From the NCBI RefSeq assembly GCF_008704535.1, contig NZ_CP023701.1:1178001-1242000 (forward strand): a DNA stretch of 64,000 nt. The letters run 5' to 3'. The notes under the pieces are model-generated. The model worked only from the letters and a program-made list of their open reading frames with translations. It was not told the origin of the DNA and ran no database searches. Position 1 is the stretch's first letter. Every line of letters begins with the position of its first letter. A program made the translations under genes and the position numbers. This stretch comes from Streptomyces subrutilus. Lineage in GTDB: Bacteria; Actinomycetota; Actinomycetes; Streptomycetales; Streptomycetaceae. Positions 6,857-23,680 of the stretch are shown piece after piece.

Positions 6857-7486
6857 TCAGCCGTCGAGGTGGCGGGTGTCTCCGAGGCGGGCGAGCTGGC
6901 GGTTGTGGAAGAAGTCGTCCTCGCGGAGATGGGTGATGCTGCCCGAGGCGACCCGGAAGTTGACGTGGCCGAGGGAGTCCATCGGCATGCCGATCCAGGC
7001 CGCCACGACGAAGGTCAGGGCGAAGCCGTGGGTCACGACGACCTGGTGCTCGTACGGGCGGCGCAGGATGCCGTCCATCGCCTCGTAGATCCGCTCCGCG
7101 AACGCGGCCCGGGTCTCGGCCCCCTCGATCCCCTCGACGTGCGCCATCCGGTCGCCGGTCGCGGGCGGGGGGACGAACCGCTTGTCCAGCCACTCCTGGG
7201 GCCTGCCCTCCGCCTCTCCGTACGACTTCTCGCGCAGCCGGCGGTCCAGGGTGGCCTCCACGTCGAACACCCGGGCGATCTCGTCCGCCGTGCGCCGGGT
7301 CCGCAGGAGGTCGGAGGAGATCAGGTCGACCTCGGCGCCCTCGGGGATCTCGGTCCGCAGGGCGCGGGCGATCGCGGCCGCCTCCCGCACCCCCGCGGGG
7401 GTCAGGGTCGAATCGTGCCATCCGCCGACCAGGCCCTCGACGTGGTGACTGGCCTCCGGATGGGTGACGACGTGGATGCTGCGCAC
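6857..7486 (-). CDS. Histidine phosphatase family protein (RHG motif altered)
   Basis: A 209-residue phosphoglycerate-mutase-like phosphatase. The N-terminal motif reads VVTHPEASHH, so the usual Arg of LVRHG is Thr while the phosphorylated His is kept. The second Arg (SSDLLRTRRTA) and the late His (VVVTHGFALT) are present. The GTG at 7486 follows AGAGAGG. It is the last gene of a minus-strand run with asparagine synthetase and nucleotidyltransferase 1 and may remove a phosphate installed elsewhere in the cluster (inference). Confidence 0.82.
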   Translation of the reverse strand: MRSIHVVTHPEASHHVEGLVGGWHDSTLTPAGVREAAAIARALRTEIPEGAEVDLISSDLLRTRRTADEIARVFDVEATLDRRLREKSYGEAEGRPQEWLDKRFVPPPATGDRMAHVEGIEGAETRAAFAERIYEAMDGILRRPYEHQVVVTHGFALTFVVAAWIGMPMDSLGHVNFRVASGSITHLREDDFFHNRQLARLGDTRHLDG

Positions 7487-7563: not shown

Positions 7564-9300
7564 TCACGGAAGAGACAGTTCCAGGATCATCAGGCCCCAC
7601 ACCAGACGCGCCTGGTCGCGGCGGACGGCGTGCGCGTCCAGGACCTCGCGCACGGCGGCGGCGCTCAGGAATCCGGCGGTGCTCAGCCGGGGCCCGGCCA
7701 GTACGTCGGTCGCGAACTCCCACAGTTTGGTGCCCGGGGCCAGGAACGCGTCGACGGGGAAGGTGAAGGGCTGCTTCTGCCGCGTCCGCACCGATTGCGG
7801 CACGAGAGGGCCGCCGGCGTCCCAGAGGATCCCCTTGCGCCGGGTCTCGGTGGCCTTCAGGGCGTCCGGGGTGCGCCGCGCGAAGTCGGTGACGGCCGGC
7901 TGGCAGTAGGGCACCCGGCCCTCGATCGAGTGGGCCATGGAGAGGTGGTCGAGCTTGCGCAGGTTGAGCCCGGGGAGCTTGTGCAGCCGGTCGAAGGCGA
8001 GCAGCTGCTCCAGGCGTGCGGGGGCCGGCGGGCCGAGCAGCTCCCGCGCGCGCTCGCGGCTGCCCCCGGCGTCGTCGAGCAGTGCCCGGTACTCGGGCGT
8101 GTAGAGCCGGCGGTAGCGCGCGCGGGGGACCAGCGAGAGCCGGTCCAGGTAGCGCTCCTGCCACGTGTCGTCGGTGGCGGCGAGCGCGGTGCTGTAGCGG
8201 CGGTAGCCGCCGAACTGCTCGTCCGCGCCGTCGCCCACGAAGCACACCCGGAAGGAGCGCTTGGCGATCTCCCGGAAGAGGACGTACGCGCTGAGCGCGT
8301 GGGGCGTCGCGTTGGGCGAGCCCAGCGCCGCCACCATGGGCCCGATCAGCTCGGGCAGTTCCGCCTCCCGGATCTCGACCACTTCGAGCGGGATCCCGGC
8401 GTGCGCGGCGGCATCGCGCGCGTAGGTCTCCTCGTCGGAGGGGTGGGTGCCCTCGTGGGTGACGTGGAAGGCGGTGACGTCGGTGCGCCGGCGGCCCAGC
8501 AGCGTGGCCAGGACGGCCGAGTCGAGGCCGCCGGAGAGCTGTACGGCCACGGGCGCGGACTGGAGCGACATCCGCTCCACTTCCCCGGCCAGCAGGGACC
8601 CGAGGCGATCGGGCGTGCAGCCGGCGTCCGGCGGCGGCGCCGTGGTGCGCGGTACCCGGGTGGCGGCCGTCCGCCCGTCGTGGACCAGGTGCTCGCCCGC
8701 CCGGAGCGAGGACACTCCGGTGTGGAGGGACCTACCGGGAGGCAGGCACTGCCAGTTCAGGTAGTGGTCCACGGCGTACGGGTCCACCTCGGGGCGGCCC
8801 GTCCGCAGGGCGGCGAGGCCGCCGGGTTCGGACGCGAAGGCGATGCCGTCCGCGGTGACCTCGTAGTACAGGCTCTTGACCGCCAGCGGGTCGCTCCACA
8901 GCTTCAGCCGGCGCCCGGAGCGCAGGTCCACCAGGGCGATGGCGTACATGCCTTCGAGCCGCTCGACGAACCGGTCGCCGTGCAGTTCGTAGTAGGGCAG
9001 CAGGACGGAGCCGTCGGAGTCGCCCTCGACGTGCACCCCGTGCCCGGCGAGCTCCCGCCGGATGGCGCGGAAGTTGTAGATCTCGCCGTTGAACACGGCG
9101 TGCACCGATCCGTCGGCGTTGGCGAACGGCTGGCGGCCGTGGGACGGGTCCTGGATCGCGAGGCGGTTGCAGCCCAGGCCCCAGTCCTCCCCCCGGACGT
9201 GGGCCTGCCGGTCGGGACCGCCCGACAGCTGGGCGTCGCGCGCGGCCTCCATCGCGCGCACGGCGCGATCGGAACCGAAATAGCCGTAGATCCGGCACAA
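7564..9300 (-). CDS. asnB: Asparagine synthetase (glutamine-hydrolysing), amidotransferase
   Basis: A 578-residue two-domain enzyme. The N-terminal glutaminase has Cys2 exposed after Met removal (MCRIYGYF instead of the usual MCGIVG) and the glutamine-binding NGEIYN and NRLAIQD motifs. The synthetase half has the pyrophosphate loop SGGLDSA at residues 256-262 and a C-terminal SIEGRVPYC segment. It activates a carboxylate with ATP and amidates it with ammonia from glutamine. Placed between a nucleotidyltransferase and a phosphatase in an apparent biosynthetic cluster, it may amidate a pathway intermediate rather than aspartate. Lasso cyclases are relatives, but no lasso partner genes are present. 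Confidence 0.88.
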   Translation of the reverse strand: MCRIYGYFGSDRAVRAMEAARDAQLSGGPDRQAHVRGEDWGLGCNRLAIQDPSHGRQPFANADGSVHAVFNGEIYNFRAIRRELAGHGVHVEGDSDGSVLLPYYELHGDRFVERLEGMYAIALVDLRSGRRLKLWSDPLAVKSLYYEVTADGIAFASEPGGLAALRTGRPEVDPYAVDHYLNWQCLPPGRSLHTGVSSLRAGEHLVHDGRTAATRVPRTTAPPPDAGCTPDRLGSLLAGEVERMSLQSAPVAVQLSGGLDSAVLATLLGRRRTDVTAFHVTHEGTHPSDEETYARDAAAHAGIPLEVVEIREAELPELIGPMVAALGSPNATPHALSAYVLFREIAKRSFRVCFVGDGADEQFGGYRRYSTALAATDDTWQERYLDRLSLVPRARYRRLYTPEYRALLDDAGGSRERARELLGPPAPARLEQLLAFDRLHKLPGLNLRKLDHLSMAHSIEGRVPYCQPAVTDFARRTPDALKATETRRKGILWDAGGPLVPQSVRTRQKQPFTFPVDAFLAPGTKLWEFATDVLAGPRLSTAGFLSAAAVREVLDAHAVRRDQARLVWGLMILELSLP

Positions 9301-9348
9301 GGGCTCTTCCCCCAGGTGTTCGGTGGGTCGACGCGGACCGCCGGCCGC

Positions 9349-10449
9349 TCAGGCGGACTTGTTGTTCTCCCCGACGGGGGCCGTGCGGTCCTTCGCCCAT
9401 TCCCGCAGCGGCAGGTGGTGCGGGGCCGCGGTGCGGGCGGTCAGGGCGGCGAGCAGCTCGCGCAGCGGGGGGAGGCCGGGCTCGACCTCGCGGGCGCGGA
9501 AGCAGTACTCGTTCGAGATCTCGGCGTTCCAGGTCATGCTCTCGTGCAGTTCCTCCTTCAGCAGACCGAGGAAGTCCGCGCGGCCGACGAACGCCTCGGC
9601 CTTCTCCCGGCCCGCCCGGATCTCGGCGAAGGCGAGGTCGACGAGGTCGAGCCATTCCAGGACCACGTCGGCGGCATCGACCCGCGGACCCGCGCCGAGC
9701 GCGTTCAACTCGGCGAAGCGAAGGGTCAGTTCGGAGGGCAGCGGGAGGCGGTCGAGGAAGCGGGAGAGGTACTTCGGGTTGCGGTTGGTGTTGCCGTGGA
9801 CGTGCGTCAGCCCCCGGAAGGTGTCGACGCCCAGCTTGCGCGCCGCGATCAGCGCCGACGCGTGGTCTCCTTGCGCCCACATGCCGGCCAGGTCGCGGAA
9901 GTCGGGGTAGCTGCCGACCGCCGCGCGGAAGGCCGTGTAGGCGACCTCTCCGGGGCGCACCCCGGCGGTGAGCTCGCCGAACGCGGCGGCGTTCGTCAGC
10001 GGGACCCCGTACGTGAGCCGCGACAGGACCCGGAAGTCGACGGCGGACGCCGCGAATCCGGAGGACTTGCGGGCGCGGGTGCGCATCTGGGCGTAGAGCC
10101 GTGCGTGCGCGTCGAGCAGGGCGGAGACCTCCTGGACCGTCCAGTACTCGACGTCCACTCCGAGCAGGCTGCCGGGCAGGTAGTCGAAGCTGGCCTTCAC
10201 CCGGTCGCCGCTGGTGTAGTACCGCATGTGCTGCTCGCGGGGGAAGGTGGCGCGGTGGAACCGCTCGTCCTGCGACCGGGCGATGACGCAGAAGTCGAAG
10301 TCCGAGGACGGGGTGCCCGAGCCGTCCACGAGCGAGCCGGACAGCATCAGGATGTCGTCGTCCACGAGGTGGATCTTCGCGAGGACGGCCTCCTCGTCGA
10401 AGTCGTCCATGCCGCGGACCGCGGCGAGGTGGGTGCGGAAGGAGAGCAC
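9349..10449 (-). CDS. Nucleotidyltransferase-fold protein 1
   Basis: A 366-residue protein with the polymerase-beta/KNTase-type signature LSGSLVDGSGTPSSDFDFCV (GS...D-x-D) near residues 30-50; the two Asp would bind the metal-nucleotide. The remainder is helical and unlike common families. The GTG at 10449 is preceded by a GAGAGGGGCAGGG tract; an in-frame ATG at 10410 is the alternative. It is the first gene of a minus-strand run leading to asnB and the phosphatase, and is divergent from the Nudix gene. It may transfer AMP or another nucleotide to a small molecule. A second NTase-fold protein lies at 26981-28024 with the same GS...D-x-D logic but low overall similarity. Confidence 0.72.
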   Translation of the reverse strand: MLSFRTHLAAVRGMDDFDEEAVLAKIHLVDDDILMLSGSLVDGSGTPSSDFDFCVIARSQDERFHRATFPREQHMRYYTSGDRVKASFDYLPGSLLGVDVEYWTVQEVSALLDAHARLYAQMRTRARKSSGFAASAVDFRVLSRLTYGVPLTNAAAFGELTAGVRPGEVAYTAFRAAVGSYPDFRDLAGMWAQGDHASALIAARKLGVDTFRGLTHVHGNTNRNPKYLSRFLDRLPLPSELTLRFAELNALGAGPRVDAADVVLEWLDLVDLAFAEIRAGREKAEAFVGRADFLGLLKEELHESMTWNAEISNEYCFRAREVEPGLPPLRELLAALTARTAAPHHLPLREWAKDRTAPVGENNKSA

Positions 10450-10566
10450 GGCTGCCCTGCCCCTCTCGGTCGAAGTGCGGTGTCCCGGCCGGGTGTCCGG
10501 CCGGCTGGAAGCGCTGGGATCCGGGTGCGCCGGGCGCGGTGTCCCGGCGGCGCGTACGGTGTCCCG

Positions 10567-11067
10567 GTGACTTCGCTGAAGCTTCGGCACTCCGTGCGCG
10601 CGATCGTGTTGGACGCGGAGGACCGCGTGCTGCTCTGCCGGTTCCTGCTGCGCGAGCCGTCCGGAGCGGTGGTCCTGTGGGCGGCGCCCGGCGGGGGCGT
10701 CGCCCCCGGCGAGGGGCCGCTCGACGCGCTGCGCCGGGAGCTGCGCGAGGAGGTGGGGCTCGCCCCGGTCGGCGGCGATCCGCCCCACGTGTGGCACCAG
10801 GAGGTCGTACGGCCCGGCATGAGCCGGGGGTACGACGGCGTCGTGAACGACTACTACCTCGTGCGCACCGCGGCCTTCGTCCCGCGCGGGGAGCTGACCG
10901 ACGAGGAGCTCGCCGCCGAGAACATCACCGGCACGCGGTGGTGGCGGGCGCCGGAGATCGTCGGCTACCGCGGCCCCGACCTCTTCGCCCCGCGCGATCT
11001 CGGCACTCCGCTCACCGCCCTGCTCACCGGTGGTGTCCCGGAGCGGCCGGTGCGGCTCGGTCTGTGA
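10567..11067 (+). CDS. Nudix hydrolase
   Basis: A 166-residue Nudix domain protein. The Nudix box is complete: GGGVAPGEGPLDALRREL followed by REEVGL, giving the G-x5-E-x7-RE-x2-EE-x-G pattern with metal-binding glutamates. The rest matches the MutT-like fold (VRAIVLDAEDRVLLCRF strand). The start is the GTG at 10567. Its 3' end overlaps the convergent HprK-like gene by 44 nt. Nudix enzymes cleave nucleoside diphosphates linked to another group, which fits the nucleotide-centred gene set around it. Substrate unknown. Confidence 0.85.
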   Translation: MTSLKLRHSVRAIVLDAEDRVLLCRFLLREPSGAVVLWAAPGGGVAPGEGPLDALRRELREEVGLAPVGGDPPHVWHQEVVRPGMSRGYDGVVNDYYLVRTAAFVPRGELTDEELAAENITGTRWWRAPEIVGYRGPDLFAPRDLGTPLTALLTGGVPERPVRLGL

Positions 11068-12121
11068 GACGCTGCTCCGGGGAGCGCCGCGGCGACGGCA
11101 CCCGGGCGCGCAGGTGGCCGGCGAGCCGGGCGACCTCCCGGCCCGCGTCGGCGAACGCGTACCGGAAGCGGAAGGTGGGCAGCGCCGTGAGGGCGTCGCG
11201 GGTCCGGCCGGGACCGGAGCCGTCCGGTGCGTGGCCGAAGATGTTGAGGTGTTTGTTGGGCAGGCCCAGGACGTGCCGCTCCAGGAGTGCGGCGCGCTCG
11301 GCCTGCGGGACCTCGGCCACGCCGGTCTCCGACGGGTCGTCGGCGAGGCTCAGGTGGACGATCGCGTCGACCCCGGCCGACCGGCCGATGCGGGTGTCCA
11401 GCAGGTCCGCGTACTCCCAGGGGTAGATCAGGGCCGTCCCGTGCTCCTCCACCCCCGACGCGCGCAGGCTCCCCAGCGTCCGGTTGGCGGGATGGGTCAG
11501 GGAGGACAGCACCGTCCGCGCCTTCTCCGGTCCGAACAGCAGGTCGAGGGTGTCCAGCCGGACCGAGACGGACCGCGGCCAGCCGGCGCCGAGGACCCCG
11601 CTCCCGTCCGGCTGCGCCGTGAGGCTCACGTCGTCGTTGCACACCATGACGCCCGCGCCGTGCAGCACGCTCGCCATGACGAAGGTGGTCTTGCCCGCCC
11701 GGCTGCCGCCCACGAGGGCGACGCCCAGCCCGTCGAGCTGCACCAGCCCGGCGTGCAGGAAGAGCATGCCCTGCCGGGCGGCCGTCGAGCGGTGGATCGC
11801 CCGGGTAGCCCGCAGCAGGGACTGCACCACCCACGGCTCGCCCCCCGGGGCGAGGTGGTGGACGGTCCTGCGGGGGTGGTCGACCGCGTAGCGGACGCTG
11901 TCCTCGCCCTGCGCGGTGACCGTCTCCCGCGCGGCGTCCTCCGGGGGTTCGGCGCCGGCCACGACCTGCCAGGCGCCCGGTCCGCAAGGGCCCGGTTCGA
12001 CGGTCAGGTAGGGGCGTGCGAGGCGGTCGATGTGCTGCGCCACGGACGGTGAGCACGTCAGGCCGGTGCTCTCGACGTGCGAACGGACGGTGTACCGGTG
12101 CGTGGGTGCGCTCGATGTCAT
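11024..12121 (-). CDS. HprK-like P-loop kinase 1
   Basis: A 365-residue protein with an HPr-kinase-type C-terminal domain. A lead-in GMLFLHAGLVQLDGLGVALV runs into the Walker A loop GGSRAGKTT at residues 138-146, then a CNDD acidic pair typical of this family. The N-terminal 110 residues are unassigned. ATG 12121 is chosen. Actinobacterial HprK-like proteins lacking HPr partners occur in natural-product loci, where some phosphorylate peptides or small molecules. Convergent overlap with the Nudix gene (11024-11067). A second such kinase is at 14708-15850, only about 15% identical by eye. Confidence 0.75.
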   Translation of the reverse strand: MTSSAPTHRYTVRSHVESTGLTCSPSVAQHIDRLARPYLTVEPGPCGPGAWQVVAGAEPPEDAARETVTAQGEDSVRYAVDHPRRTVHHLAPGGEPWVVQSLLRATRAIHRSTAARQGMLFLHAGLVQLDGLGVALVGGSRAGKTTFVMASVLHGAGVMVCNDDVSLTAQPDGSGVLGAGWPRSVSVRLDTLDLLFGPEKARTVLSSLTHPANRTLGSLRASGVEEHGTALIYPWEYADLLDTRIGRSAGVDAIVHLSLADDPSETGVAEVPQAERAALLERHVLGLPNKHLNIFGHAPDGSGPGRTRDALTALPTFRFRYAFADAGREVARLAGHLRARVPSPRRSPEQRLTDRAAPAAPGHHR

Positions 12122-12284
12122 GCCGTCTATCACCCCCGTGGTGTCTGGGTGAGGGCCCGCGCCGTGCCGGGTCCCGGTCTTGTCGGGTCGATCATGACAA
12201 GGACGGCGGGGCCTGTCCCGGGCGATTCCGCAGAGCGGAACGGACATGGGATTCGGTCGGCGCGGGACGCGGGTCGGCGCGGAT

Positions 12285-12986
12285 TCAGTCGGCGTCCGCC
12301 ACCATCGGCCCGCGGGTGTCCCAGCCCAGCTCGTCGAGCCCCCGGAAGAACCTGCCGTTGGACCGCCCGGCGGGTACGCCCAGCAGGCGCACGAGGTCGC
12401 CGGCGGCCGGGGCCGGCTCGTTCGGGGCGTCCGGCGTCCCCATGTCGGTACGGATCCATCCCGGGCAGTACGCGAAGGCGGCCAGGTCGCCGGAGGCCTC
12501 GGCGAAGTGCCGGGCCACCGACAGGACCAGGGAGTTGGCCGCCAGCTTGGACGACCGGTAGGCGAAGGAGGCCCCGTCGGCGTCCTGGAGTCGTCCCATG
12601 CCCGAGGAGACGCAGACGATCCGGCCCGAGCCCCGCGCGAGCATCCGCGGCGCGTACCGCTGGACCAGCCGGGCCGTGCCGAACAGGTTGACCTCGAAGG
12701 TGTCCCGCAGGTCGTCCGGGGTGAGGGAGAAGAGGTCGCCGTACCCGCCCCGGGGGTCGTCCAGGTAGACGCCCGCGTTGTTGACCAGCACGTCGACGTC
12801 CTCGGCGGCGAAGAGGTCGTCGGCGAGCGGCTCGCGCAGGTCCAGGGCCCGGTAGTCGTCGACGTGGTCGCCGCCCGGCGAGGGCGACAGGCCCACGCCC
12901 AGGACGCGGTGGCCTGCGGCCCGCAGCGCACGGCACAGATGGGCTCCGAGGCCGCGGGAGACACCGGACACGAGTGCAGTCGGCAT
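12285..12986 (-). CDS. Short-chain dehydrogenase/reductase 1
   Basis: A 233-residue classical SDR. It has the nucleotide loop SGVSRGLG, NNAGVY, the Ser of CVSSGMG and the catalytic YRSSK (Y-x3-K). It presumably oxidises or reduces a hydroxyl/ketone with NAD(P)H. The ATG is at 12986. It is divergent from the NMP-kinase-like gene and upstream of HprK-like 1 on the same strand (gap 163 nt). Substrate not predictable from sequence. Confidence 0.87.
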   Translation of the reverse strand: MPTALVSGVSRGLGAHLCRALRAAGHRVLGVGLSPSPGGDHVDDYRALDLREPLADDLFAAEDVDVLVNNAGVYLDDPRGGYGDLFSLTPDDLRDTFEVNLFGTARLVQRYAPRMLARGSGRIVCVSSGMGRLQDADGASFAYRSSKLAANSLVLSVARHFAEASGDLAAFAYCPGWIRTDMGTPDAPNEPAPAAGDLVRLLGVPAGRSNGRFFRGLDELGWDTRGPMVADAD

Positions 12987-13150
12987 GGCGGCGAGCGTAG
13001 CCCCCGCGCGGGCGCCTGTCCGTACCGCGCGGCGCCGGTGCGGGCCGCTGCGCGACGGCCCGCCGTCCCGTGCGCCGTGTCGTGCGGCGGGCGGGCCGGT
13101 TAGTCTGGTGCGCCCGGTCAAGGGATGCCCGAGGAATGAGGAGGCGGCGG

Positions 13151-13714
13151 ATGCACACGCACCGACTGCTCGTCACGGGGCCGAGCGGGGCCGGCAGCAC
13201 CACGCTCGGCCGCGCGCTCGCGACCCTGTGGGCAGCGGCCCACGCGGACGTGGACGACTACCTGTGGGTGCCGACCATCCCGCCCTACACCCGCAAACGC
13301 CCCGTCGAGGAGCGACTGGCGCTGATGGAGTCCATCTTCGTGCCGCGCGCCGCCTGGGTGCTGTCCGGGACGCTGCGGGGCTGGGGCGACAGCGTCATCG
13401 CGCAGGCCGACGGCGTGGTGTTCCTGACCATCGACCCGCAGGTCCGGATGGACCGGCTGATGCGCCGCGAGGTCGTCCGGTACGGGGACCGCATCGAGTC
13501 CGGCGGCGCCCTGGAGACGGCCCACCACGACTTCATGACCTGGGCGAGGGGCTACGAGGACACCGAGGTGCCGGCCCGCCAGTCCAAGGACGAGCGCTGG
13601 CTGGCCACGCTCACCTGTCCGGTGCTGCGCCTGGACAGCGCCCTGCCGCCGGACAAGCTGGTCGCCGAGGTGACCGACTGGTTCGAGGGCGGGGCGCCGG
13701 ACCGGTCCCCGTGA
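13151..13714 (+). CDS. P-loop NMP-kinase-like ATPase
   Basis: A 187-residue protein resembling adenylate/shikimate-kinase-type P-loop enzymes. Walker A GPSGAGSTT lies at residues 10-18, with an acidic DVDDYLW strand (the DxD region) and a lid-like RLMRREVVRYGDR segment rich in Arg. The ATG at 13151 follows GAGGAGG. The stop overlaps the next gene's start (GTGA), so the two are translationally coupled and probably act together. These proteins phosphorylate small hydroxylated substrates or nucleotides. Confidence 0.78.
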   Translation: MHTHRLLVTGPSGAGSTTLGRALATLWAAAHADVDDYLWVPTIPPYTRKRPVEERLALMESIFVPRAAWVLSGTLRGWGDSVIAQADGVVFLTIDPQVRMDRLMRREVVRYGDRIESGGALETAHHDFMTWARGYEDTEVPARQSKDERWLATLTCPVLRLDSALPPDKLVAEVTDWFEGGAPDRSP

Positions 13715-14685
13715 CGGGAGCCGTTCGGCCCACCGTCCCCGGGGCCATGCGGCTGGTCGCCGCGGGCCGGGCCGAACTCCTCGACGGCCGGGGCCTCAAC
13801 AGCTCCTACCGGGTGGCCTGGGGCTCCCGGGCGCTCTCGGTGAAGGTGCACTGCGCGGAGCGTTCCTCGGCCGCCGAGTTCCAGCGGATAGGCCGTGTCG
13901 ACGCCGCCCTGCGCGGCGCGCCCTGGTACCCGCCGGTGCTCGCCCTGGGCTTCCACGGGACGCCGCGGCCCCGGCTGGTGGTCGTCCGTCCGTACGCCCC
14001 CGGTACGCCGGCGCAGGACGCGCGGCGGCACATCACCGGCGTCGTCGGCGTCCTGGCGGACCTGGCGGCGCGCGCGGAGGGGGTCCGGGCCGGGGAGGCG
14101 CTGGTCGGGGACTACGCCTCGGTGTGGCTGTCGGGGGCGAGGTCGGAGCGGTCCCTCGTGGACCCGCTGCTGACCGGCGAGTGGCGGGGCCTGGCCCGGG
14201 CCATGGACGCGCACCTAGGCGAACTGAGCGCGGGCGCGGCCCGGTTGACCCGGCCGAGCGGCCTGCTGGTCCACCACGGCGACCTGCACGGGCGCAACCT
14301 GATCGCGGACGGCCCGGACCGGCTGACGGTCATCGACTGGGACGAGGCCGGCTTCTCCCGGCGGCCGGCCGACGCGGGCAAGGCGCTGTGGCTCTCGTGC
14401 CGTCTCGGGCGGGGCGACTTCGTGCTGGACCCGGACGCGACGGCCCTCTTCCTGGGCCGGCTGCACGCCCGGCTGGGCACGCCGTACGCGGACGCCCGCG
14501 ACCTGGCCCTGCTCGGCGCCCTGTGGTTCCTGCCCCGGCACGGCCACGTCACCCTGCTGGGGCGGCGCGGCGCGGGCCTGGACACCTGGTACCTCGGCTG
14601 GGTCCTGCGCTTCTGGACGCGTTTCCGGACGAACCTGGAGCTGGTCGCCGCGGCGGCCGCGGCGCTGGAGGCGGGGGCGCCTTGA
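13711..14685 (+). CDS. Aminoglycoside-phosphotransferase-like (APH) kinase
   Basis: A 324-residue APH/choline-kinase-fold protein. It has the nucleotide Lys (LSVKVH, about residue 45), the catalytic loop HHGDLHGRN (Asp191) and the metal motif IDWDEAGF (Asp209/Asp211). Its GTG start sits in the stop codon of the preceding P-loop kinase gene. Members phosphorylate sugars, cyclitols or amino alcohols and often give self-resistance to aminoglycoside-like compounds. Together with the inositol-phosphate synthase nearby, a cyclitol or amino-cyclitol substrate is an attractive guess. Confidence 0.82.
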   Translation: MTGAVRPTVPGAMRLVAAGRAELLDGRGLNSSYRVAWGSRALSVKVHCAERSSAAEFQRIGRVDAALRGAPWYPPVLALGFHGTPRPRLVVVRPYAPGTPAQDARRHITGVVGVLADLAARAEGVRAGEALVGDYASVWLSGARSERSLVDPLLTGEWRGLARAMDAHLGELSAGAARLTRPSGLLVHHGDLHGRNLIADGPDRLTVIDWDEAGFSRRPADAGKALWLSCRLGRGDFVLDPDATALFLGRLHARLGTPYADARDLALLGALWFLPRHGHVTLLGRRGAGLDTWYLGWVLRFWTRFRTNLELVAAAAAALEAGAP

Positions 14686-14707
14686 GCGGTGCCCCGGCGG
14701 CGCGCCC

Positions 14708-15850
14708 TCACCTGCGCACGCGGTCCTCGAAGTCGGCGGCGAGCCTCGCCACGTCGGCCGCACTGCCCACGGAGCAGCGCAGCACGGGGAGTTTCGCGAG
14801 GTGTTCCAGGAAGGCGCCGACCGAGGGGGGTGCCGCCCGGCGCCGGACGGGGACGTCGAGCCAGTCCTCGCCGTAGAGGTTGTCGTCGAGGGAGAAGCAG
14901 TTGCGGGTGATGACGTCCGCGGCGTGGGCGGGGCTCGCGGCGGCGAGGCGGTAGCCGGCCGCGCGGTCCACGCGGGGCAGGATCACGCCGGCGAGCGGTG
15001 CGTGGGGCACGACCCGGACGCCGAGGTAGCGGCCGACCTCCTGCGAGCTCAGCTTCAGTTTGTCCTCGCCCTGGAAACGGTCCCAGTCCGATCCGGCCGG
15101 CGGGAAGCCCGCGCGCACGGACCACGATCCGAAGTCGGTGACGCCCATGACGTCGAGGGAGCCCTTGTTGATGGCGAGCGGCAGCGGGCAGGCCGTCACC
15201 TGGTAGCCGGGGCCGCGCTGGTCGAGGTGCATCCGGTCGTTGCCCATCCAGCCGGCCGAGGGCAGCAGCCGGGCCAGCGCGATGGCCGTGGTCGACTTGC
15301 CGGCCCCGGAGTCGCCGATCACCAGGTAGGCGCCGTCGTCGTGCACGAAGGCGGAGGAGTGCAGGACCAGCGAGCCCTCGGCCTTGGCGATCCGGGTGGC
15401 GACGTCGCGGATGACCCGGGTGAGCCACCGGTCCCCCAGCCCGGACCGGGGGCGCAGGAGCGTCACGCGGCCCTCGGTGCGGATCAGGGCGGCCACCTCG
15501 TCGGAGTTCTGGTCGCGGAGCTCGAAGACGGTGTGGCCCTCGCCGTCGAAGCGCGGCTGCCGGTAGTGGCGGGTCAGTTCGTACTCGCCCCGTACGGCCG
15601 TCTCGGCCGCGTGCCGGAGCAGCCCGGACACCTCGGAGGGGTCCCGGGCCACGTCGACGATCACGAGGTCCGGCTCCTCCTCCGGGCCGCTCTCTCCGAC
15701 GCCGAGCATGCCGGGCGGGCAGAAGGTCTCCGAGACCAGGCCGTCGGCCTCGGGCGAATCGGTGACGACCTTCACCGTCTGGTCCCGGACGCGCAGGTAC
15801 CGGGTGGTCGCACCGTCCGGGTCACGGGATACGAGGTCACTGAGGGACAT
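14708..15850 (-). CDS. HprK-like P-loop kinase 2
   Basis: A 380-residue HPr-kinase-like protein. HSSAFVHDDGAYLV leads into Walker A GDSGAGKST at residues 179-187, followed by MGNDRMHLD, which supplies the Asp pair of the family. The N-terminal 150 residues are not assigned. It ends 22 nt from the convergent APH-like gene. Two HprK-like kinases in one cluster is unusual. Their substrates are probably cluster-specific molecules or a protein not encoded here. Confidence 0.76.
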   Translation of the reverse strand: MSLSDLVSRDPDGATTRYLRVRDQTVKVVTDSPEADGLVSETFCPPGMLGVGESGPEEEPDLVIVDVARDPSEVSGLLRHAAETAVRGEYELTRHYRQPRFDGEGHTVFELRDQNSDEVAALIRTEGRVTLLRPRSGLGDRWLTRVIRDVATRIAKAEGSLVLHSSAFVHDDGAYLVIGDSGAGKSTTAIALARLLPSAGWMGNDRMHLDQRGPGYQVTACPLPLAINKGSLDVMGVTDFGSWSVRAGFPPAGSDWDRFQGEDKLKLSSQEVGRYLGVRVVPHAPLAGVILPRVDRAAGYRLAAASPAHAADVITRNCFSLDDNLYGEDWLDVPVRRRAAPPSVGAFLEHLAKLPVLRCSVGSAADVARLAADFEDRVRR

Positions 15851-15994: not shown

Positions 15995-16804
15995 TCAGCA
16001 CAGCGGGCGGGTCACGGCGGCGCCGCGGCGGAACACGGTCCAGGTACGGAACCCGATGTCCCCGAGCACCTTGGCCACCTCCGGGTACTGGTCGGCCACG
16101 CGCTCCGGGACGTGCGCGTCGGACCCGAAGGTGATCGGCACCCCGAAGTGGTGGGCCCGCTCCAGCAGGTCGAACTCGGGGTACCAGCCGCCGCACATCT
16201 TGGTGCCGCCGGAGGTGTTGACCTCCATCACCGCGCCGGAGTCCCGGATCGCGCGGAGCATCTCGTCGGCCGCGGCGGGCGCGGGGACGGCGCCCAGCGC
16301 CGGGTGGTTGCCCTTCAGCGCGTCCACGTGGCCCATGACGTGGAACAGGCCGGAGCGGGCGCATGCGGCGATCTCCCGGAAGTAGCGCGATTTGACCGCG
16401 CTCAGCTCGTCCTCCGCCACGCTCTCCCAGCGGGTGGTGTCGAAGATGTCCCGGCCCTCGAACATGTGGACCGAACCGATGACGTAGTCGAGCGGGTAGG
16501 CGCTCAGCGCCCTCGTGTACGGGTCGGTCCGCCCGTCGAGGAAGTCGGCCTCCGTGGAGACGAGGATCTCGATGCTGCCCGCGAACTCCTCCTTGAGGGC
16601 CAGGGCTTCCGCGATGTAGGAGGGGAAGCCGGACTTCGGCATCGCGACGCGCGGCAGCGCGTGGTCCTCCTCCTCCGCGAACATCGGCGTGTGGTCGGAG
16701 AGTCCGAGGACCCTGACGCCCCGGTCGAGCGCCGCGGTGACGTAGTCCCTCAGCGATCCCGTGGCGTGCCCGCAGCGCTGGTGGTGGGTGTGCAGATCGA
16801 TCAC
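15995..16804 (-). CDS. PHP-domain phosphatase (histidinol-phosphatase-like)
   Basis: A 269-residue PHP hydrolase. The N-terminal metal motif is HTHHQRCGHATG, then LGLSDHTPMF, GSVHMF, VMGHVDALK and the late GSDAHVP, together the ligands of a trinuclear metal site. Family members remove phosphate from histidinol phosphate or similar small esters. GTG start at 16804, 3 nt after the SDR 2 stop, so it closes the coupled run 19787 to 15995. Context suggests a pathway phosphatase rather than histidine biosynthesis. Confidence 0.84.
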   Translation of the reverse strand: MIDLHTHHQRCGHATGSLRDYVTAALDRGVRVLGLSDHTPMFAEEEDHALPRVAMPKSGFPSYIAEALALKEEFAGSIEILVSTEADFLDGRTDPYTRALSAYPLDYVIGSVHMFEGRDIFDTTRWESVAEDELSAVKSRYFREIAACARSGLFHVMGHVDALKGNHPALGAVPAPAAADEMLRAIRDSGAVMEVNTSGGTKMCGGWYPEFDLLERAHHFGVPITFGSDAHVPERVADQYPEVAKVLGDIGFRTWTVFRRGAAVTRPLC

Positions 16805-16807
16805 GGC

Positions 16808-17596
16808 TCACACCGCCAGGTATCCGCCGTCGACCGGCAGGTCGGTGCCGGTGATGAAGCCGGCCTCGGCGGAGAGCAGGAAGGCGATCGGCGCCGCGAT
16901 CTCCTCGGGATCGGCGAAGCGCCGCAGCAGGAACTTCCCCCCGTGTTCCGGGGCCGCCTCGGCCGTCGCCCGGTCGAGCCCGAGGGCCTCGCGGTGGTAG
17001 CGCTCGTTGTTGGCGTTCCACACGGTCCCCGGGCTCACCGAGTTGACCCGGACGCCCCGGGGGGCCAGTTCCTGGGCGGCGCAGCGGGTGAAGCCCAGCA
17101 CCGCCGACTTGCCGGTGTTGTAGGTCAGGTATCCGCTCTGCGCGATGTGCGCCGAGATGGACGCCATGTTGACGATCGCGGCCCCGGCCGCGTCCGGGGG
17201 CAGTGCGGCGACGAACTCCCGGGTGACCAGGGACAGGCCGACGATGGTGGGGGCGAGTGCGGCCTGCCAGTCCTGCGGGGTGGCGTCCAGGCCCTTGAAG
17301 ACGAAGCCCGCGGCGAGGTTCACCAGCAGGGTGGGGGCCGGCCAGCCGGCCGGGACGCCGGCGAAGGCCGCCCGGACCGCGTCCTCGTCGACCACGTCGC
17401 CCACCGCGAGGGCCACCTCGTGACCGTGCTCCCGCCAGTCCTTGACCGCCGAACGGCCGTGTTCGGCGCTCTTGTCGAGGACGAGGACCCGGCACCCTTC
17501 CGCGCACAGCCGCGCGACGACCGCCGCGCCGATGCCCTGGGCTCCGCCGGTCACGACCGCGGTGCGGCCCGCGAGCCCCCGTTCGAGCGTGTTCAT
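16808..17596 (-). CDS. Short-chain dehydrogenase/reductase 2
   Basis: A 262-residue classical SDR. It has GGAQGIG for NAD(P), NLAAG in place of NNAG, NMASISAH for the catalytic Ser and YNTGK for Tyr-x3-Lys. The tail ITGTDLPVDGGYLAV is typical of family members. Its ATG overlaps the stop of the NDPK-like gene (ATGA), so it is translationally coupled to it. It likely oxidises an alcohol on a cluster intermediate; a cyclitol phosphate is a reasonable candidate given the neighbouring inositol-phosphate synthase. Confidence 0.88.
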   Translation of the reverse strand: MNTLERGLAGRTAVVTGGAQGIGAAVVARLCAEGCRVLVLDKSAEHGRSAVKDWREHGHEVALAVGDVVDEDAVRAAFAGVPAGWPAPTLLVNLAAGFVFKGLDATPQDWQAALAPTIVGLSLVTREFVAALPPDAAGAAIVNMASISAHIAQSGYLTYNTGKSAVLGFTRCAAQELAPRGVRVNSVSPGTVWNANNERYHREALGLDRATAEAAPEHGGKFLLRRFADPEEIAAPIAFLLSAEAGFITGTDLPVDGGYLAV

Positions 17597-18600
17597 GTCG
17601 TCTCCAGCCCCTTTCCGGTGGCCCATGCGCGTACGTGGTCGAGCGCGTCCCCGCGGTGCAGCCCCTCGGTGGCGCCGTGCGGCGAGAACGTCTCGCCGGA
17701 GTCCTCGGTGAGGTTGCGGTCGTCGGCCAGCGCCGCCACGGCCGGCGCCGGTACGCCCCGCTCGGCCAGGCCGGCGCCGAAGGAGGTGCTCCCGATCCCC
17801 AGGCCGTCGGCCGCGGCGAAGTACCGCCAGACCTGGAACATGCCCTCCAGGTGCCCGGCCGACAGGTGGACGGTGTTGCGTCCCTCGGAGACGGTGGTGC
17901 CCCGGCTCGCGGCCAGGGCGCCCAGCGCGCCCCGCAGGGAGTCCGGGGCCGCGTGCGCCGGGTGCAGCGCGCCCAGGACCTCGGCGCGCAGGGCGTCGAT
18001 CTCGCGGTCGCCGTGGCACTCCAGGAGGCCGACGAACGCCCCGGCCCCGGTGTAGCCCTCGGCGAGGGCCGGCAGGAAGCCGTTCAGCACCACCGCCCGC
18101 CGGCCGCTCGGCCCGGTCACCGAGGCGTACGAGCCGGAGCCCAGCTTGTGGATGCCCGCGGCACGGCAGCGCGCGTCCAGCGCCTCCGGGGTGAGGCCCG
18201 CCTCCCGCGCCATCACCCCGTACGCCCCCAGGACCTCCTCGGTGCCCGTCCTCTCCCCCAGCGACCGCAGGGCCCGCAGGGCACCGGAGGTCAGGGTCGC
18301 GGGGCCGTCCGCGGCCAGCCGGTGCAGGCGCGGGTAGTGCAGGTAGAGGTGGCCGCCGCGCCCGAACTCCCGCGCCGGGACGACGGCCGCGCGGCGTACG
18401 TCCACCTCCGCTGCGCCGAGGACCCGTACCGCCTCGGCCAGCGCCTCGGGGGCCCCCGAGGCGGTCATGACCTCCGGTTTGACCAGTACCACGAAGTGGC
18501 TGCCGGCCGCGGGCGGGGCGGCCGGCGGCGGCCCGGTGTCGGTGCGGGGGTCCGCGGCGCGCGCCCGCGCGGCGAGGGCGCGCGCCTCCCGGACGCTCAC
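17593..18600 (-). CDS. Enlarged nucleoside-diphosphate-kinase-like protein
   Basis: A 335-residue protein whose two ends match NDP kinase. FVVLVKPEV (Lys41) resembles the first strand. Residues 187-262 carry the P-A-x-x-A-P-x-S-x-R-G segment and GRNTVHLSAGH, in which His245 aligns with the phospho-accepting His. Normal NDP kinases are about 140 residues. Here about 85-100 extra residues (roughly 100-185) split the fold, and a 70-residue C-terminal tail contains LTEDSGETFSPHG. The GTG overlaps the AdoMet synthetase stop by 4 nt. The role is not established: it may phosphorylate a non-nucleotide or act with the synthetase. Confidence 0.65.
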   Translation of the reverse strand: MSVREARALAARARAADPRTDTGPPPAAPPAAGSHFVVLVKPEVMTASGAPEALAEAVRVLGAAEVDVRRAAVVPAREFGRGGHLYLHYPRLHRLAADGPATLTSGALRALRSLGERTGTEEVLGAYGVMAREAGLTPEALDARCRAAGIHKLGSGSYASVTGPSGRRAVVLNGFLPALAEGYTGAGAFVGLLECHGDREIDALRAEVLGALHPAHAAPDSLRGALGALAASRGTTVSEGRNTVHLSAGHLEGMFQVWRYFAAADGLGIGSTSFGAGLAERGVPAPAVAALADDRNLTEDSGETFSPHGATEGLHRGDALDHVRAWATGKGLETT

Positions 18601-19787
18601 CACAGGGTGATGCCCTTCTCGATCAGCTCGACCGTCAGGTCGGCGGAGCTCGCGACGGTGGCCTCCACCAGGGCCCGCAGCGCCGGTTCGTCCGCGTCGG
18701 GGGTGGTCACGACGACCTCGTCGGGGTGCTCCAGCGGGGCTTCCTTGGAGGTGAAGATGTGCACCTGCGCCGGTCCGCCGAACTCCTCGTGGACCTGCCG
18801 GGCCAACCGTGCGGCCATCACGTTGTAGATCTTGCCGGTGTGGTCGAGCGGGTTCTTGCCGGCGGGGGCCTCGATGCTCATGGGACGCATGGGTGTGATC
18901 AGGCCGTTGACCCGGTTGCCCCGCCCGACCACGCCCACGTCGCCGGTGTCGGCCACGGACCCGAGGGCGGTGAGGTAGGGGCGGCCGTTGCGGTCGGTGG
19001 CGTTCATCAGGAGGCGGACGTCGTGGATGCCCAGCGAGGCGATGTACGCGTCCAGCTCGGCCCGCACGACGGCCTTGCGCGCCAGGTAGTGGTCCATCGA
19101 CTCGATGTGCGCCGCGAGGAAGGGCATGTTGACGACCAGGCTGAAGGCGTCCTGCCGCCTGCTGCCGAAGACCTTGACGTCCCAGCCCGAGTCCGGGTGG
19201 CGCCGCTTGAAGGCGGCGCCGTTGACGAGGTGCTCCAGTCCGAGCACCACGCTCTCCAGCCGGGACAGCGGGGCGTAGCCGTGGAGCAGGTTGGTGTCGT
19301 TGGACACCAGCCCCTGCGCGCGCAGGGGTACGAGGTCCCGCAGCGAGGCGGGCTGGTAGCGGGAGCGGCCGCGGCCCGAGCCCTGGTGGTCGACGACGCC
19401 GAGTTCGACGACGAGGTGGCGGGTGGCGTCGAAGCCGGTGGTGACCTCCGCCAGGACGTCGGCCGCCGCGCGGAAGACGAGCTCCTGGACGGGTATCTCG
19501 GCGGCCCCGACCCGGAAGGCGGCCTTGCCGAAGACCATCACCCGGTAGGGCGAGGTGAGTTCGCCCCGCCCGTAGTCGGTGTCCGCCCCGCCGCCGTAGA
19601 GGGTCACCTTGTCGAACCAGTGGTGGGCGACCCCGCCGAACTCCTTGAGGCAGTGGAGGGAGTAGTAGCGCGACATGCGCTCCGCGATGGCGTCGCACAT
19701 GGTGTCCGGGTGTCCCACTCCCTTGCGCTCGACCAGCTCGTAGGGCAGGTCCTCGACCGATCGGGAGTCCCGTTGTATGGACAGCAT
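18597..19787 (-). CDS. Archaeal-type S-adenosylmethionine synthetase
   Basis: A 396-residue AdoMet synthetase of the archaeal family (AdoMet_Synthase), not the bacterial MetK family. Diagnostic segments are VERKGVGHPDTMCDAIAE, VVELGVVDHQGSGRGR, VGRGNRVNGLITPMRPMS and EAPAGKNPLDHTGKIYN, covering ATP/methionine binding and the flexible loop. It makes AdoMet from methionine and ATP. Streptomyces already have a housekeeping bacterial MetK, so a second copy of this type inside a biosynthetic block suggests heavy or specialised AdoMet demand. Overlaps the NDPK-like gene and lies 35 nt below the inositol-phosphate synthase. Confidence 0.9.
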   Translation of the reverse strand: MLSIQRDSRSVEDLPYELVERKGVGHPDTMCDAIAERMSRYYSLHCLKEFGGVAHHWFDKVTLYGGGADTDYGRGELTSPYRVMVFGKAAFRVGAAEIPVQELVFRAAADVLAEVTTGFDATRHLVVELGVVDHQGSGRGRSRYQPASLRDLVPLRAQGLVSNDTNLLHGYAPLSRLESVVLGLEHLVNGAAFKRRHPDSGWDVKVFGSRRQDAFSLVVNMPFLAAHIESMDHYLARKAVVRAELDAYIASLGIHDVRLLMNATDRNGRPYLTALGSVADTGDVGVVGRGNRVNGLITPMRPMSIEAPAGKNPLDHTGKIYNVMAARLARQVHEEFGGPAQVHIFTSKEAPLEHPDEVVVTTPDADEPALRALVEATVASSADLTVELIEKGITLW

Positions 19788-19822: not shown

Positions 19823-20890
19823 TCAGGAGGCGAAGTCCAGGAACGCGGCCCTGGCCTCGGATTCGGGCAGACCGTGCGGCGGGCTCTTGAAGAGCAGCGG
19901 GGAGGGGGCGTCCACCGCGCCGGACAGGCCCCGGTCGGTGGCGGTCTTCGCGGCGCGCACGGCGTTGGCGATGACGCCGGCGGCGTTCGGGCTGTCCTCC
20001 ACCGTGAGTTTGATGTCGATGCTCACTTGGGAGCCGAGCACCGACTTCGCCGTGACGTTGGCGAAGCACAGCTTGGTGTCGGCGAGGTGCCCGATGAACC
20101 CGGAGGGGCCCGCGACCCCGTCCACGTCGCTCATGCCGGCCGCGCGCAGCGCGTTGGCCTTCGAGGTGAACTTGGAGGCGGAGCGGCCGGCGTCGGCGAG
20201 GTTCAGGAAGTCGGTGTTCCCGCCGACGTTGAGCTGGTAGGTGCTCTGCAGCTCCAGCCCTCGGCTGAGGAGCAGTTCGATGAGGGCGGTGTGCAGGCAG
20301 GTGGCCCCGAGATGGCTGCGCAGGTCGTCGCCGAGCAGGACCACCCCCGCCTCCGCGAACCTGCGGCTGACGCTCGCGTCCCGGGCCAGCTCCTCCGGAG
20401 TGCAGTTGACGACGGCGGTCCCGGCGGTGAGCGCGGCCTGCGCGAACATCCGGATGGCCCGGGAGGCCCCCGTGGGCAGGGCGATGACCAGGACGTCGAC
20501 CTCGTGCTCGACGAGGGCCTTGGCCACGTGCTCCGGGGTGGCGTCCCGTGCGGCGGCGGCGGGCCGCACCACGGACGCGAGCGGGCCCACCAGGCCGTCC
20601 AGCACGGGCGCCGGGAGCACCGGGGCGTCGCGGTCGGCGCCGAGGTCGGTGAAGCCGGTGGCGGAGATGACGGGGGCGGTGAACGCCTCCGCCAGGGGCA
20701 GTCCGACCTTCGCCTCGTCCACGTCGAACGCGGCGACGATCCGGACGTCCGCGAGGCGGTAGCCGCCGAGGGTGTGGCACATCAGGCCCGGCAGCCTGGT
20801 GTCCGGGGCGGCCTGGGCCAAGGCGACGAACTGGGCGAAGCTCCACGCGCAGTTGCCTGCGCCGGCGAGCGCGACACGGATGTTCTTCAT
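19823..20890 (-). CDS. ino1: myo-Inositol-1-phosphate synthase
   Basis: A 355-residue synthase with the NAD loop VALAGAGNCAWS, the inositol-synthase core QLNVGGNTDFLNL and KFTSKA (catalytic lysines), and VEDSPNAAGVIANAVRAAK. It isomerises glucose 6-phosphate to an inositol phosphate with bound NAD. It differs clearly from the housekeeping actinobacterial enzyme I know (GVGNCAASLVQG and so on), so it is probably a dedicated cluster copy. The ATG is at 20890. It heads a run with the AdoMet synthetase, NDPK-like, SDR and PHP genes, suggesting a cyclitol precursor. Confidence 0.87.
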   Translation of the reverse strand: MKNIRVALAGAGNCAWSFAQFVALAQAAPDTRLPGLMCHTLGGYRLADVRIVAAFDVDEAKVGLPLAEAFTAPVISATGFTDLGADRDAPVLPAPVLDGLVGPLASVVRPAAAARDATPEHVAKALVEHEVDVLVIALPTGASRAIRMFAQAALTAGTAVVNCTPEELARDASVSRRFAEAGVVLLGDDLRSHLGATCLHTALIELLLSRGLELQSTYQLNVGGNTDFLNLADAGRSASKFTSKANALRAAGMSDVDGVAGPSGFIGHLADTKLCFANVTAKSVLGSQVSIDIKLTVEDSPNAAGVIANAVRAAKTATDRGLSGAVDAPSPLLFKSPPHGLPESEARAAFLDFAS

Positions 20891-20993: not shown

Positions 20994-22010
20994 TCAGGTC
21001 CGCCACGGCCGGGGGACCCGGCGGGCGGCGCTCGCATGGGTCTCGGCCCAGCGGCGTATCGATCGGTGGAGCACCAGGGCCGTGTCGGGCACCCGGTGCG
21101 TGACCTCGAACGGTTCCGTGACCGACAGGTAGCCCTGGTAGGCGCGGAACGCGGTGACCCGGAGCAGTTGCGCCCGGTCCAGGTGCTGCTCGGCGAAGGG
21201 CAGGTAGAAGCGGTTCCACTGCTCGGGCGTCATGGAGGGGAGCCGGTCCAGCGGGGGGACCCCGTGCGCGGCCCGCCAGGTGTTGAGGGCGGCCCGGACC
21301 GTCTCGAAGGCCTCGGCCACCGGCTGGGCGCGGTCGCCGCGCCCGAGGACCGACAGCCGGGTGGCCGCCGGGGCGCCCGCGGCGAGGAGCCGGGTGACGT
21401 GCTGGGCCACGTCGTCGGTGCTGACGATGTCCAGCAGTGCCTTCTCCTCGGCCACCATCGCCGGGACCGCGCCGCTGCACAGCGACGTGGGCAGCCAGAA
21501 GAACCCGCTGTAGCGGTCCAGCAGGCCGTCGGTGCGCGCTCCCATCACCACGGGGAACCGCACGATGTCGGCGCGCGCGCTCTCGGCGTGCACCAGCCGT
21601 TCCGTCGCCGCCTTGGACCACTCGTACGAGTTGCGGTAGGCGTCCGGGGAGGGCGAGGTGACGTCCCCGGCCAGGCCGGTGGCGTAGGAGGACGAGAGGT
21701 GCACGAGGTGGGTCTCGGGGGTGGTCAGGCGCAGCACCGCCCGCAGCGGGTCGACGTTGGCCCGTTCGGCCTCCTCGAAGGGCAGGTTCCAGCGGGTGTC
21801 GGCGGCGCAGTGCACCACGGTGTCCCACGGGCCGCGCAGCGCCGGGGGCGGCTCCTCGCGTCCGACCTGCCAGACGTGCTGCCGGGGGCCCGTCCCCCCT
21901 CGGCGGCTGACGCCGTGGGGCCGGTGTCCCGCCGCGTCGAGCGCGCGCATCACGGCGCCGCCGACGGCGCCGGTGGCACCGGTCACGAGGATGCGCACGG
22001 AGCCGCTCAC
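20994..22010 (-). CDS. NAD-dependent epimerase / thioester-reductase-like SDR
   Basis: A 338-residue extended SDR. It has TGATGAVGG near the N-terminus, HLSSSYA, and SYEWSK for the Tyr-x3-Lys pair. The overall pattern resembles the male-sterility/thioester-reductase branch (PF07993), but no carrier-protein domain is attached. The GTG at 22010 overlaps the SRPBCC stop (GTGA). It may epimerise or reduce a small substrate. No partner NRPS or acyl carrier is visible. Confidence 0.78.
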   Translation of the reverse strand: MSGSVRILVTGATGAVGGAVMRALDAAGHRPHGVSRRGGTGPRQHVWQVGREEPPPALRGPWDTVVHCAADTRWNLPFEEAERANVDPLRAVLRLTTPETHLVHLSSSYATGLAGDVTSPSPDAYRNSYEWSKAATERLVHAESARADIVRFPVVMGARTDGLLDRYSGFFWLPTSLCSGAVPAMVAEEKALLDIVSTDDVAQHVTRLLAAGAPAATRLSVLGRGDRAQPVAEAFETVRAALNTWRAAHGVPPLDRLPSMTPEQWNRFYLPFAEQHLDRAQLLRVTAFRAYQGYLSVTEPFEVTHRVPDTALVLHRSIRRWAETHASAARRVPRPWRT

Positions 22011-22450
22011 GCGACCGTGATCCGCCGCTCGATGGCGCGGAGCATGTGCTCGGAGTTCTCGCGCAGGGCCTTCGCGGCGACCGGGTTCAGCATGTCGGCC
22101 AGCAGGGGTATGCCGATCTCGAAGTCGACCGAGAAGACGACGACCGAGGTGCCGTCGCCCTGGTCGTCGACGCGCCAGTAGCCGGTGAACTCGTCGAGGT
22201 CGCCGGAGACCTGGGTGAACGTCATGACGCGGCCGGCCTCGTCGAGCACGTCCTCCTCCACCCATTCGAGTACGGAGCCCTTCAGCAGCACGGACCACTC
22301 GCTGGTGCGGGTGCCGTCCTCCGCCTCGCCGAGCACGGTCACCGCTTCGACGTTCTCCATGTAGTCGGCGTAGTCCTCCAGCCGGGTGACGGCGCGCCAG
22401 GCGTCCGCCGCCGGGGCCTTGATGGGCAGGTTGACCTCGACGTGGGGCAT
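22007..22450 (-). CDS. SRPBCC / START-like cyclase-coenzyme Q-binding-family protein
   Basis: A 147-residue helix-grip domain typical of the polyketide cyclase/SRPBCC superfamily: VEVNLPIKAPAADAWRAVT at the start, a conserved hydrophobic SGDLDEFTGYWRV core and a C-terminal helix with LRENSEHMLRAIE. Such proteins bind hydrophobic ligands and some catalyse cyclisation, but no PKS is present. The ATG is at 22450, with translational coupling to the downstream epimerase. The ligand is unknown. Confidence 0.75.
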   Translation of the reverse strand: MPHVEVNLPIKAPAADAWRAVTRLEDYADYMENVEAVTVLGEAEDGTRTSEWSVLLKGSVLEWVEEDVLDEAGRVMTFTQVSGDLDEFTGYWRVDDQGDGTSVVVFSVDFEIGIPLLADMLNPVAAKALRENSEHMLRAIERRITVA

Positions 22451-22486
22451 GGCTGTGTGTCTCCTTCGGGCAGGGGGCCGGGCGGC

Positions 22487-23656: not shown

Positions 23657-23680
23657 GCCTCTCCCCTCGGGTTTTCGGTT

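Follow-up and report, generated by a model that had tools for sequence, protein, structure and literature searches.

What do two kinases of the HPr kinase (HprK) type phosphorylate in a gene cluster that holds no HPr? The question is raised by a stretch of 64,000 nucleotides from Streptomyces subrutilus (positions 1178001–1242000 of a 7.6-Mb single-contig genome; in the following, “the window”), in which two such kinases, HprK1 and HprK2, are encoded (Table 1). HprK-type enzymes are known chiefly for regulating sugar uptake and for tailoring lasso peptides. A first-pass annotation had already recorded two distinct HprK-like kinases at these positions, and both open reading frames (ORFs) are indeed intact. 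Based on motifs, profile comparisons, a predicted structure and a conserved gene neighbourhood, we propose, with a probability of roughly 0.6, that both are biosynthetic small-molecule kinases of the HprK/phosphoenolpyruvate carboxykinase (PEPCK) superfamily, not HPr kinases, in a cyclitol-type natural-product cluster.

Motifs, fold and relatives of HprK1 and HprK2

The kinase motifs are arranged in the same order in the two proteins, comprising H123, the P-loop GGSRAGKT and N162-D163-D164 (NDD) in HprK1, and H164, the P-loop GDSGAGKS and N204-D205-R206 (NDR) in HprK2. The P-loop reported for both kinases is thus present in both, whereas the acidic pair said to follow it is confined to HprK1. 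These motifs are invariant across all aligned rows, which for HprK2 number 13 and represent 11 distinct loci, L061 and L063 being apparent duplicates of L074 and L080. The ratio of non-synonymous to synonymous substitution rates (dN/dS) lies between 0.34 and 0.54 for HprK1 (nine orthologue pairs) and between 0.25 and 0.51 for HprK2 (12 pairs, two of them second copies of the same loci). Both kinases are under purifying selection and neither looks degenerate.

HPr kinase and PEPCK have been classed together (PMC1079889), and HprK2 models well as a member of this superfamily. Its predicted structure is good (pLDDT 82, pTM 0.83), while that of HprK1 is poor and unusable (pLDDT 53), so that the structural check suggested for the N-terminal domains could be made for one kinase of the two. 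A Foldseek search with the HprK2 model ranked PEP carboxykinases first; the HPr kinases begin at rank 45 (E 1.1e-4). In VIA-align, HPr kinases gave Z-scores of 11.7–12.4 over 134–140 residues of the predicted kinase domain (for 3tqf, Z 12.4 with a root-mean-square deviation of 3.0 over 138 residues), and the PEPCK 2pc9 gave Z 13.5 over 286 residues, but with a deviation of 5.2. As the latter alignment spans the whole model, the N-terminal domain of HprK2 may be PEPCK-like; it is other than that of the HPr kinases/phosphorylases. Unlike a genuine PEPCK, HprK2 scores 9.8 bits with PRK09344 (cut-off 369) and lacks a PEPCK gene context.

HprK1 is tied to the same superfamily by profile comparison. 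The HprK1 and HprK2 profiles match with a probability of 91% over 223 realigned columns (84 without realignment), and the alignment begins at residue 93 of HprK1 and residue 138 of HprK2, which bears out the view that the N-terminal parts of the two differ. Against other HprK-like groups, the HprK1 profile reaches 97.1% with t107 (215 columns), 96.4% with t111 (162 columns) and 98.6% with L120 (93 columns). P-loop controls gave 8.4% over 10 columns (AAA_18) and 45% over 19 columns (ABC) with the HprK1 profile, and 83% over 20 columns (AAA_18) and 62% over 28 columns (ABC) with that of HprK2. The control alignments extend over 10–28 columns versus 93–215 for the HprK-like groups; it is the length of a match, not its probability, that tells the family from the P-loop controls.

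Neither kinase passes the curated cut-off of any of the models listed for HPr kinase, HprK-related A/B, FomB and PEPCK. The models for the HprK-related groups A and B (TIGR04352 and TIGR04355) match weakly and far under their cut-off in all HprK1 rows (10/10) and all HprK2 rows (13/13), the window kinases scoring 14–18 bits versus a cut-off of 200. Given that two ABC-transporter models outscore them on HprK2, such a match alone is evidence at the level of the P-loop. With the HPr kinase model TIGR00679, HprK1 reaches 10.7 of 240 bits, and this model is absent among the 20 matches listed for HprK2; PF07475 has no match anywhere in the genome at E 0.001. HPr itself (PF00381) is matched once in the genome, at 2051530, which is outside the window and some 0.86 Mb away from HprK2, as expected from the remark that no HPr was in sight. 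A sequence search of the PDB yielded a single chance-level match for the HprK1 profile and 18 matches for that of HprK2, with ABC-transporter P-loops first and an HPr kinase at E 0.36.

Of the small-molecule kinases, FomB offers the closest comparison made here; it converts fosfomycin monophosphate to the diphosphate (PMC4790336) and hence acts on a small phosphorylated molecule. Its arrangement of a His/Lys position, a P-loop and an N-T motif is as in HprK1 and HprK2. However, FomB has Lys and NT/NS where the window kinases have His and ND, and their scores with the FomB model NF000361 are 12.7 bits (HprK1) and 14.1 bits (HprK2) versus a cut-off of 400. Profile comparison suggests a fair link between FomB and HprK2 (95% over 112 columns) and a weak one to HprK1.

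When 47 kinase domains were placed in a tree, HprK2 (100/100), HprK1 (92/97; 98/98 with L120) and, separately, FomB (100/100) each formed a group. The phylogeny called for earlier has thereby been supplied in part, the tree containing neither lasso-peptide kinases nor bona fide HPr kinase/phosphorylase sequences. Its deep branches are weak, with long-branch warnings. Forcing HprK1 and HprK2 into one group costs 26.8 log-likelihood units (approximately unbiased test, p 0.062), or 2.4 units (p 0.377) when L120 is added, so that such a clade is not rejected; a common origin by duplication inside the cluster is neither supported nor rejected by these comparisons. From the TIGR04352 search, 11 of the 12 loci given were used and six entered the tree after a motif filter; from the PF07475 loci two of four entered, and the L112 kinase was left out. 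The TIGR04352 search of 197 genomes of the class found relatives in 34, none above the cut-off, class-wide searches at E 0.001 matched 41/296 and 29/296 genomes with distant matches only outside the window's genome, and a plasmid search returned seven records with distant matches only.

Conservation of the gene neighbourhood

A scan of genome contigs with six HprK1 peptide patterns confirmed nine loci among 109 candidate stretches (eight from Streptomyces, one from Crossiella), a lower bound since the patterns had to match exactly. In a genus search at E 1e-9, HprK2 had matches in 15/392 genomes, four of which (own included) are at least 67% identical; two of these seem to be among the nine loci. 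Together with G384, the nine make up the ten related loci to which the counts in Table 1 refer. HprK1, HprK2, the AAA_18 kinase, the APH-like phosphotransferase and the nucleotidyltransferase-like protein are present in all of them. The genes for the PHP phosphoesterase, the short-chain dehydrogenase SDR2, the protein resembling nucleoside diphosphate kinase (NDK) and the S-adenosylmethionine (SAM) synthetase are all absent from L078; those for the myo-inositol phosphate synthase (MIPS) paralogue, the AsnB-type amidotransferase and the histidine phosphatase are absent from both L078 and L080, which are short contigs (6.7 and 9.6 kb).

Around this core, different architectures are found. Type A is marked by the genes from SRPBCC to the aminotransferase. 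Type B, comprising S. spinosus (L079) and Crossiella (L082), has the core conserved but rearranged, with AMP-ligase, acyl-CoA-dehydrogenase and transketolase-N genes as neighbours in both, and a condensation-domain gene in L079 or a PhyH gene in Crossiella (Pfam, chosen proteins). The Crossiella genes for SDR2, PHP and MIPS are adjacent, though their products are only 52, 47 and 50% identical.

The MIPS paralogue is informative with respect to the chemistry. It reaches 255 bits with TIGR03450 (cut-off 638), and phmmer scored it higher against 1gr0 (238 bits) than against 6k96 (195 bits), the latter being Ari2 of aristeromycin biosynthesis. In a tree, the cluster MIPS proteins form one group (95/93) apart from the housekeeping INO1, and Ari2 falls on their side of a 100/99.9 branch, its own branch being long and the root unknown. 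The motifs TPE, SHLG and YQLN are shared by Ari2 and the cluster paralogues, not by INO1-type proteins, but the window protein retains the INO1 lysine in RAAK, which Ari2 lacks and which we take to be catalytic in INO1. Ari2 converts fructose 6-phosphate to a cyclitol phosphate with a five-membered ring (PMC11188666); the ring made here may have five or six members.

A third architecture came from a search with an Ari2 fragment, by which 176 of 323 genus genomes were matched at E 1e-60. L182 (67% identical to Ari2), L183 (58%) and L184 (46%) stand out, the others among the matches listed being 41–43% identical. The 39-kb surroundings of L184 (L201/L202, genome G528) encode counterparts of SDR2 (50%), PHP (57%), MIPS (51%), APH (33%) and the SAM synthetase (62%), as well as an HprK1-like frame (38% over 254 aa, profile E 1e-28), a second HprK-fold gene (E 6e-9 with the HprK2 profile, E 2e-12 with that of t107), an NDK-like gene (E 5e-34) and an AAA_18 gene (E 9e-8); profile E-values for L201/L202 and for the surroundings of L182 were computed over six loci only. 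Adenosine deaminase, PhyH, NUDIX and DegT aminotransferase genes lie near. AsnB, the nucleotidyltransferase and the histidine phosphatase had no match there at E 0.001 and are, thus, outside the widest core. By sequence comparison, the set common to the three architectures is MIPS, PHP, SDR2, SAM synthetase, NDK-like protein, AAA_18, APH and two HprK-fold kinases.

Around L182 (L197, genome G592), the Ari2-like synthase gene (67%) has a FomB-family gene (profile E 2e-123) at a distance of about 8 kb, the pair occupying 8295–9362 and 17537–18610 of that locus; PfkB and carbamoyltransferase genes are located between the two or close by. Among 16 distant HprK-like neighbourhoods, two groups, both from Streptomyces, were looked at closely by Pfam analysis of ten chosen proteins (one being an AAA_18 below cut-off, one without any Pfam match). 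In t107 (L107–L110), the HprK-like gene stands with GHMP-kinase, NUDIX, HAD and pyridoxal-phosphate-dependent decarboxylase genes, and in L108 also with an APH gene; in t111 (L111, L112, L115, L116), it stands with NUDIX and APH or AAA_18-like genes. L107–L110 represent a second, unrelated-looking cluster type with an HprK-like kinase.

Proposed role and competing explanations

The absence of partner genes had been taken to leave the substrates without a clue. This view needs revision, since the conserved cluster around the pair points to a likely substrate class, namely a cyclitol or a derivative thereof. In the pathway proposed here, whose substrate class, product and sequence of steps are all inferred, the MIPS-type synthase would close a carbocycle from a hexose phosphate, the PHP phosphatase and SDR2 would tailor it, and the APH-like protein, HprK1, HprK2, AAA_18 and possibly the NDK-like protein would phosphorylate the cyclitol or its derivative, either at separate positions or one after the other. 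If FomB is a guide, one of the two HprK-type kinases may add a phosphate onto an existing one. HprK1 and HprK2 do flank a pair of genes for a nucleoside-monophosphate (NMP)-kinase-like and an APH-like protein, and the successive phosphorylations read from this arrangement are plausible, given that the adjoining genes encode other phosphotransferases and that no test shows the kinases to be HPr-specific. On the reading preferred here, the kinases act on a cyclitol-derived intermediate, probably in sequence.

The protein resembling NDK is a tentative member of this scheme. Pfam and NCBIfam assign it to no family at E 0.01, a profile search of the PDB gave no match, and it carries LVKPE, SLRG and RNxVHLS, presumably the active-site motifs of NDKs. 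Alignment of its profile with 14 NDKs by hhalign (the set comprising the 14 of 25 loci that passed the extraction pattern) covered 41 columns of the catalytic segment with P 3.6e-4 and a probability of 37%, versus P 0.19–0.66 for six controls; we tentatively regard it as NDK-like only.

Several observations weigh against a biosynthetic role of the pair. The fold of HprK1 itself is unproven, its model being unusable, and its match to FomB (75.6%, 43 columns) is barely above that of the FomB–ABC control (75.6%, 24 columns). No HprK-fold gene was detected in the surroundings of the Ari2-like L183, and six FomB-type loci (L203–L208) have no MIPS paralogue within 14–19 kb; hence, the pairing of FomB with an Ari2-type synthase rests on one genome. 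The location of HprK-like genes near other kinases illustrates a tendency in chosen examples and is not a statistic, there being no background count. Finally, resistance could be the true function of the APH-like or HprK genes.

The last point leads to the main rival, in which the producer protects itself by having one of the kinases, or both, inactivate its finished product, as FomA/FomB do with fosfomycin. In its favour, FomB is a resistance kinase (PMC4790336) and is HprK-related by profile comparison; antibiotic-modifying enzymes typically include APH-like and nucleotidyltransferase-like proteins, and the type A cluster contains ABC exporter genes. However, both kinases occur in all ten loci although the tailoring genes of types A and B, and thus probably the products, differ, and five phosphotransferases would seldom be needed for resistance. 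We therefore regard self-resistance as unlikely.

More doubtful still is a route to a cyclitol or carbocyclic-nucleoside analogue of SAM, in which a triphosphate would be built on a carbocyclic alcohol and then displaced with methionine by the SAM synthetase of the cluster. APH or HprK would provide the monophosphate, AAA_18 or HprK the diphosphate and the NDK-like protein the triphosphate. The SAM synthetase gene adjoins the NDK-like gene, and the set common to the three architectures is without a recognised SAM-consuming enzyme, a methyltransferase being recognised in type A only; the adenosine deaminase gene near L201/L202 may also be cited for this route.

Modification of a lasso-like ribosomally synthesised and post-translationally modified peptide is improbable. 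An HprK-type kinase beside a nucleotidyltransferase and an AsnB homologue does resemble the K/N/C gene set of the paeninodin and pseudomycoidin clusters, and the roles of K and N in lasso systems have been described (PMC8498205). However, the AsnB-type protein passes the asparagine-synthase cut-off and reaches 38.5 of 525 bits with the lasso-cyclase model, no B1- or B2-type gene was recognised among the scanned window proteins nor a precursor in the gap ORFs checked, and neither AsnB nor the nucleotidyltransferase belongs to the widest core. This comparison with the lasso systems is one of gene content. A regulatory kinase acting on HPr or another protein, for which the HPr kinase fold of the HprK2 model and the one HPr gene of the genome would speak, is the least probable reading, given the distance of that gene, the HPr kinase model scores and the conserved linkage to metabolic genes.

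If HprK1 and HprK2 are indeed biosynthetic kinases, they would belong to a small-molecule branch of HprK-type enzymes at which FomB hints, and a cluster family that combines two such kinases with other phosphotransferases, a cyclitol-phosphate synthase and a SAM synthetase of its own would make this branch testable. It points to an unexplored group of cyclitol natural products that would be phosphorylated more than once during synthesis; no description of the cluster was recognised in the open-access literature searched.

Gene inventory

The cluster extends over about 6.9–30.6 kb of the window (Table 1). Gene calls outside the named families were made with a simple codon-position script.

Table 1. 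Features of the cluster, with coordinates in the window and occurrence in the ten related loci
Feature	Position	Strand	Basis	Loci
Histidine phosphatase	6857–7486	-	PF00300	8/10
AsnB-type amidotransferase	7564–9300	-	TIGR01536, 291.6 bits (above cut-off 267.1)	8/10
Nucleotidyltransferase-like protein, start not fixed	9349–10467	-	PF01909, 17.9 bits (below cut-off 21)	10/10
NUDIX hydrolase	10567–11067	+	PF00293	6/10
HprK1, HprK-type kinase	11024–12121	-	365 aa, intact ORF; motifs, alignment, profile match to HprK2 and other HprK-like groups	10/10
SDR1, short-chain dehydrogenase	12285–12986	-	PF00106	9/10 (absent from L079)
AAA_18 small P-loop kinase, NMP-kinase-like	13151–13714	+	PF13238, 27.6 bits (below cut-off 29.4)	10/10
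APH-like phosphotransferase	13711–14685	+	PF01636, above cut-off	10/10
HprK2, HprK/PEPCK-superfamily kinase	14708–15850	-	380 aa, intact ORF; predicted structure	10/10
PHP-domain phosphoesterase	15995–16804	-	PF02811, above cut-off	9/10
SDR2, short-chain dehydrogenase	16808–17596	-	PF13561	9/10
NDK-like protein (tentative), start uncertain	17593–18600	-	Catalytic-segment alignment to NDKs	9/10
Archaeal-type SAM synthetase	18597–19787	-	PF01941; PDB SAM synthases, E 1.8e-63	9/10, one cut by contig end
MIPS paralogue, putative cyclitol-phosphate synthase	19823–20890	-	PF01658	8/10
NAD-dependent epimerase or reductase, type A only	20994–22010	-	PF07993, PF01370	5/10
SRPBCC, acyl-CoA-dehydrogenase-like, HAD and ABC permease genes, type A only	22007–25440	-	Pfam	6, 5, 5 and 4 of 10
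ABC ATPase, conserved 188–195 aa protein (26418–about 27005) and nucleotidyltransferase-like gene (26981–28024)	25337–28024	-		5/10 (26981–28024)
Class III aminotransferase, type A only	27994–29583	+	PF00202	5/10
SAM-dependent methyltransferase, type A only, start approximate	29730–30626	+	PF08241	5/10

The AAA_18 gene product passes NF004861 (208.1 bits, cut-off 203), an NCBIfam family without known function. A minus-strand ORF at 29795–30517 is spurious, the plus-strand methyltransferase being the real gene there. Conserved ORFs in the gaps checked were only the ends or antisense of neighbours, or the gene for the 188–195 aa protein, which has no Pfam match and lies between the ABC ATPase and the nucleotidyltransferase-like gene. 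A second archaeal-type SAM synthetase gene, whose product is 44% identical to that of the cluster, is found elsewhere in genome G384 (L106, 10015–11367).

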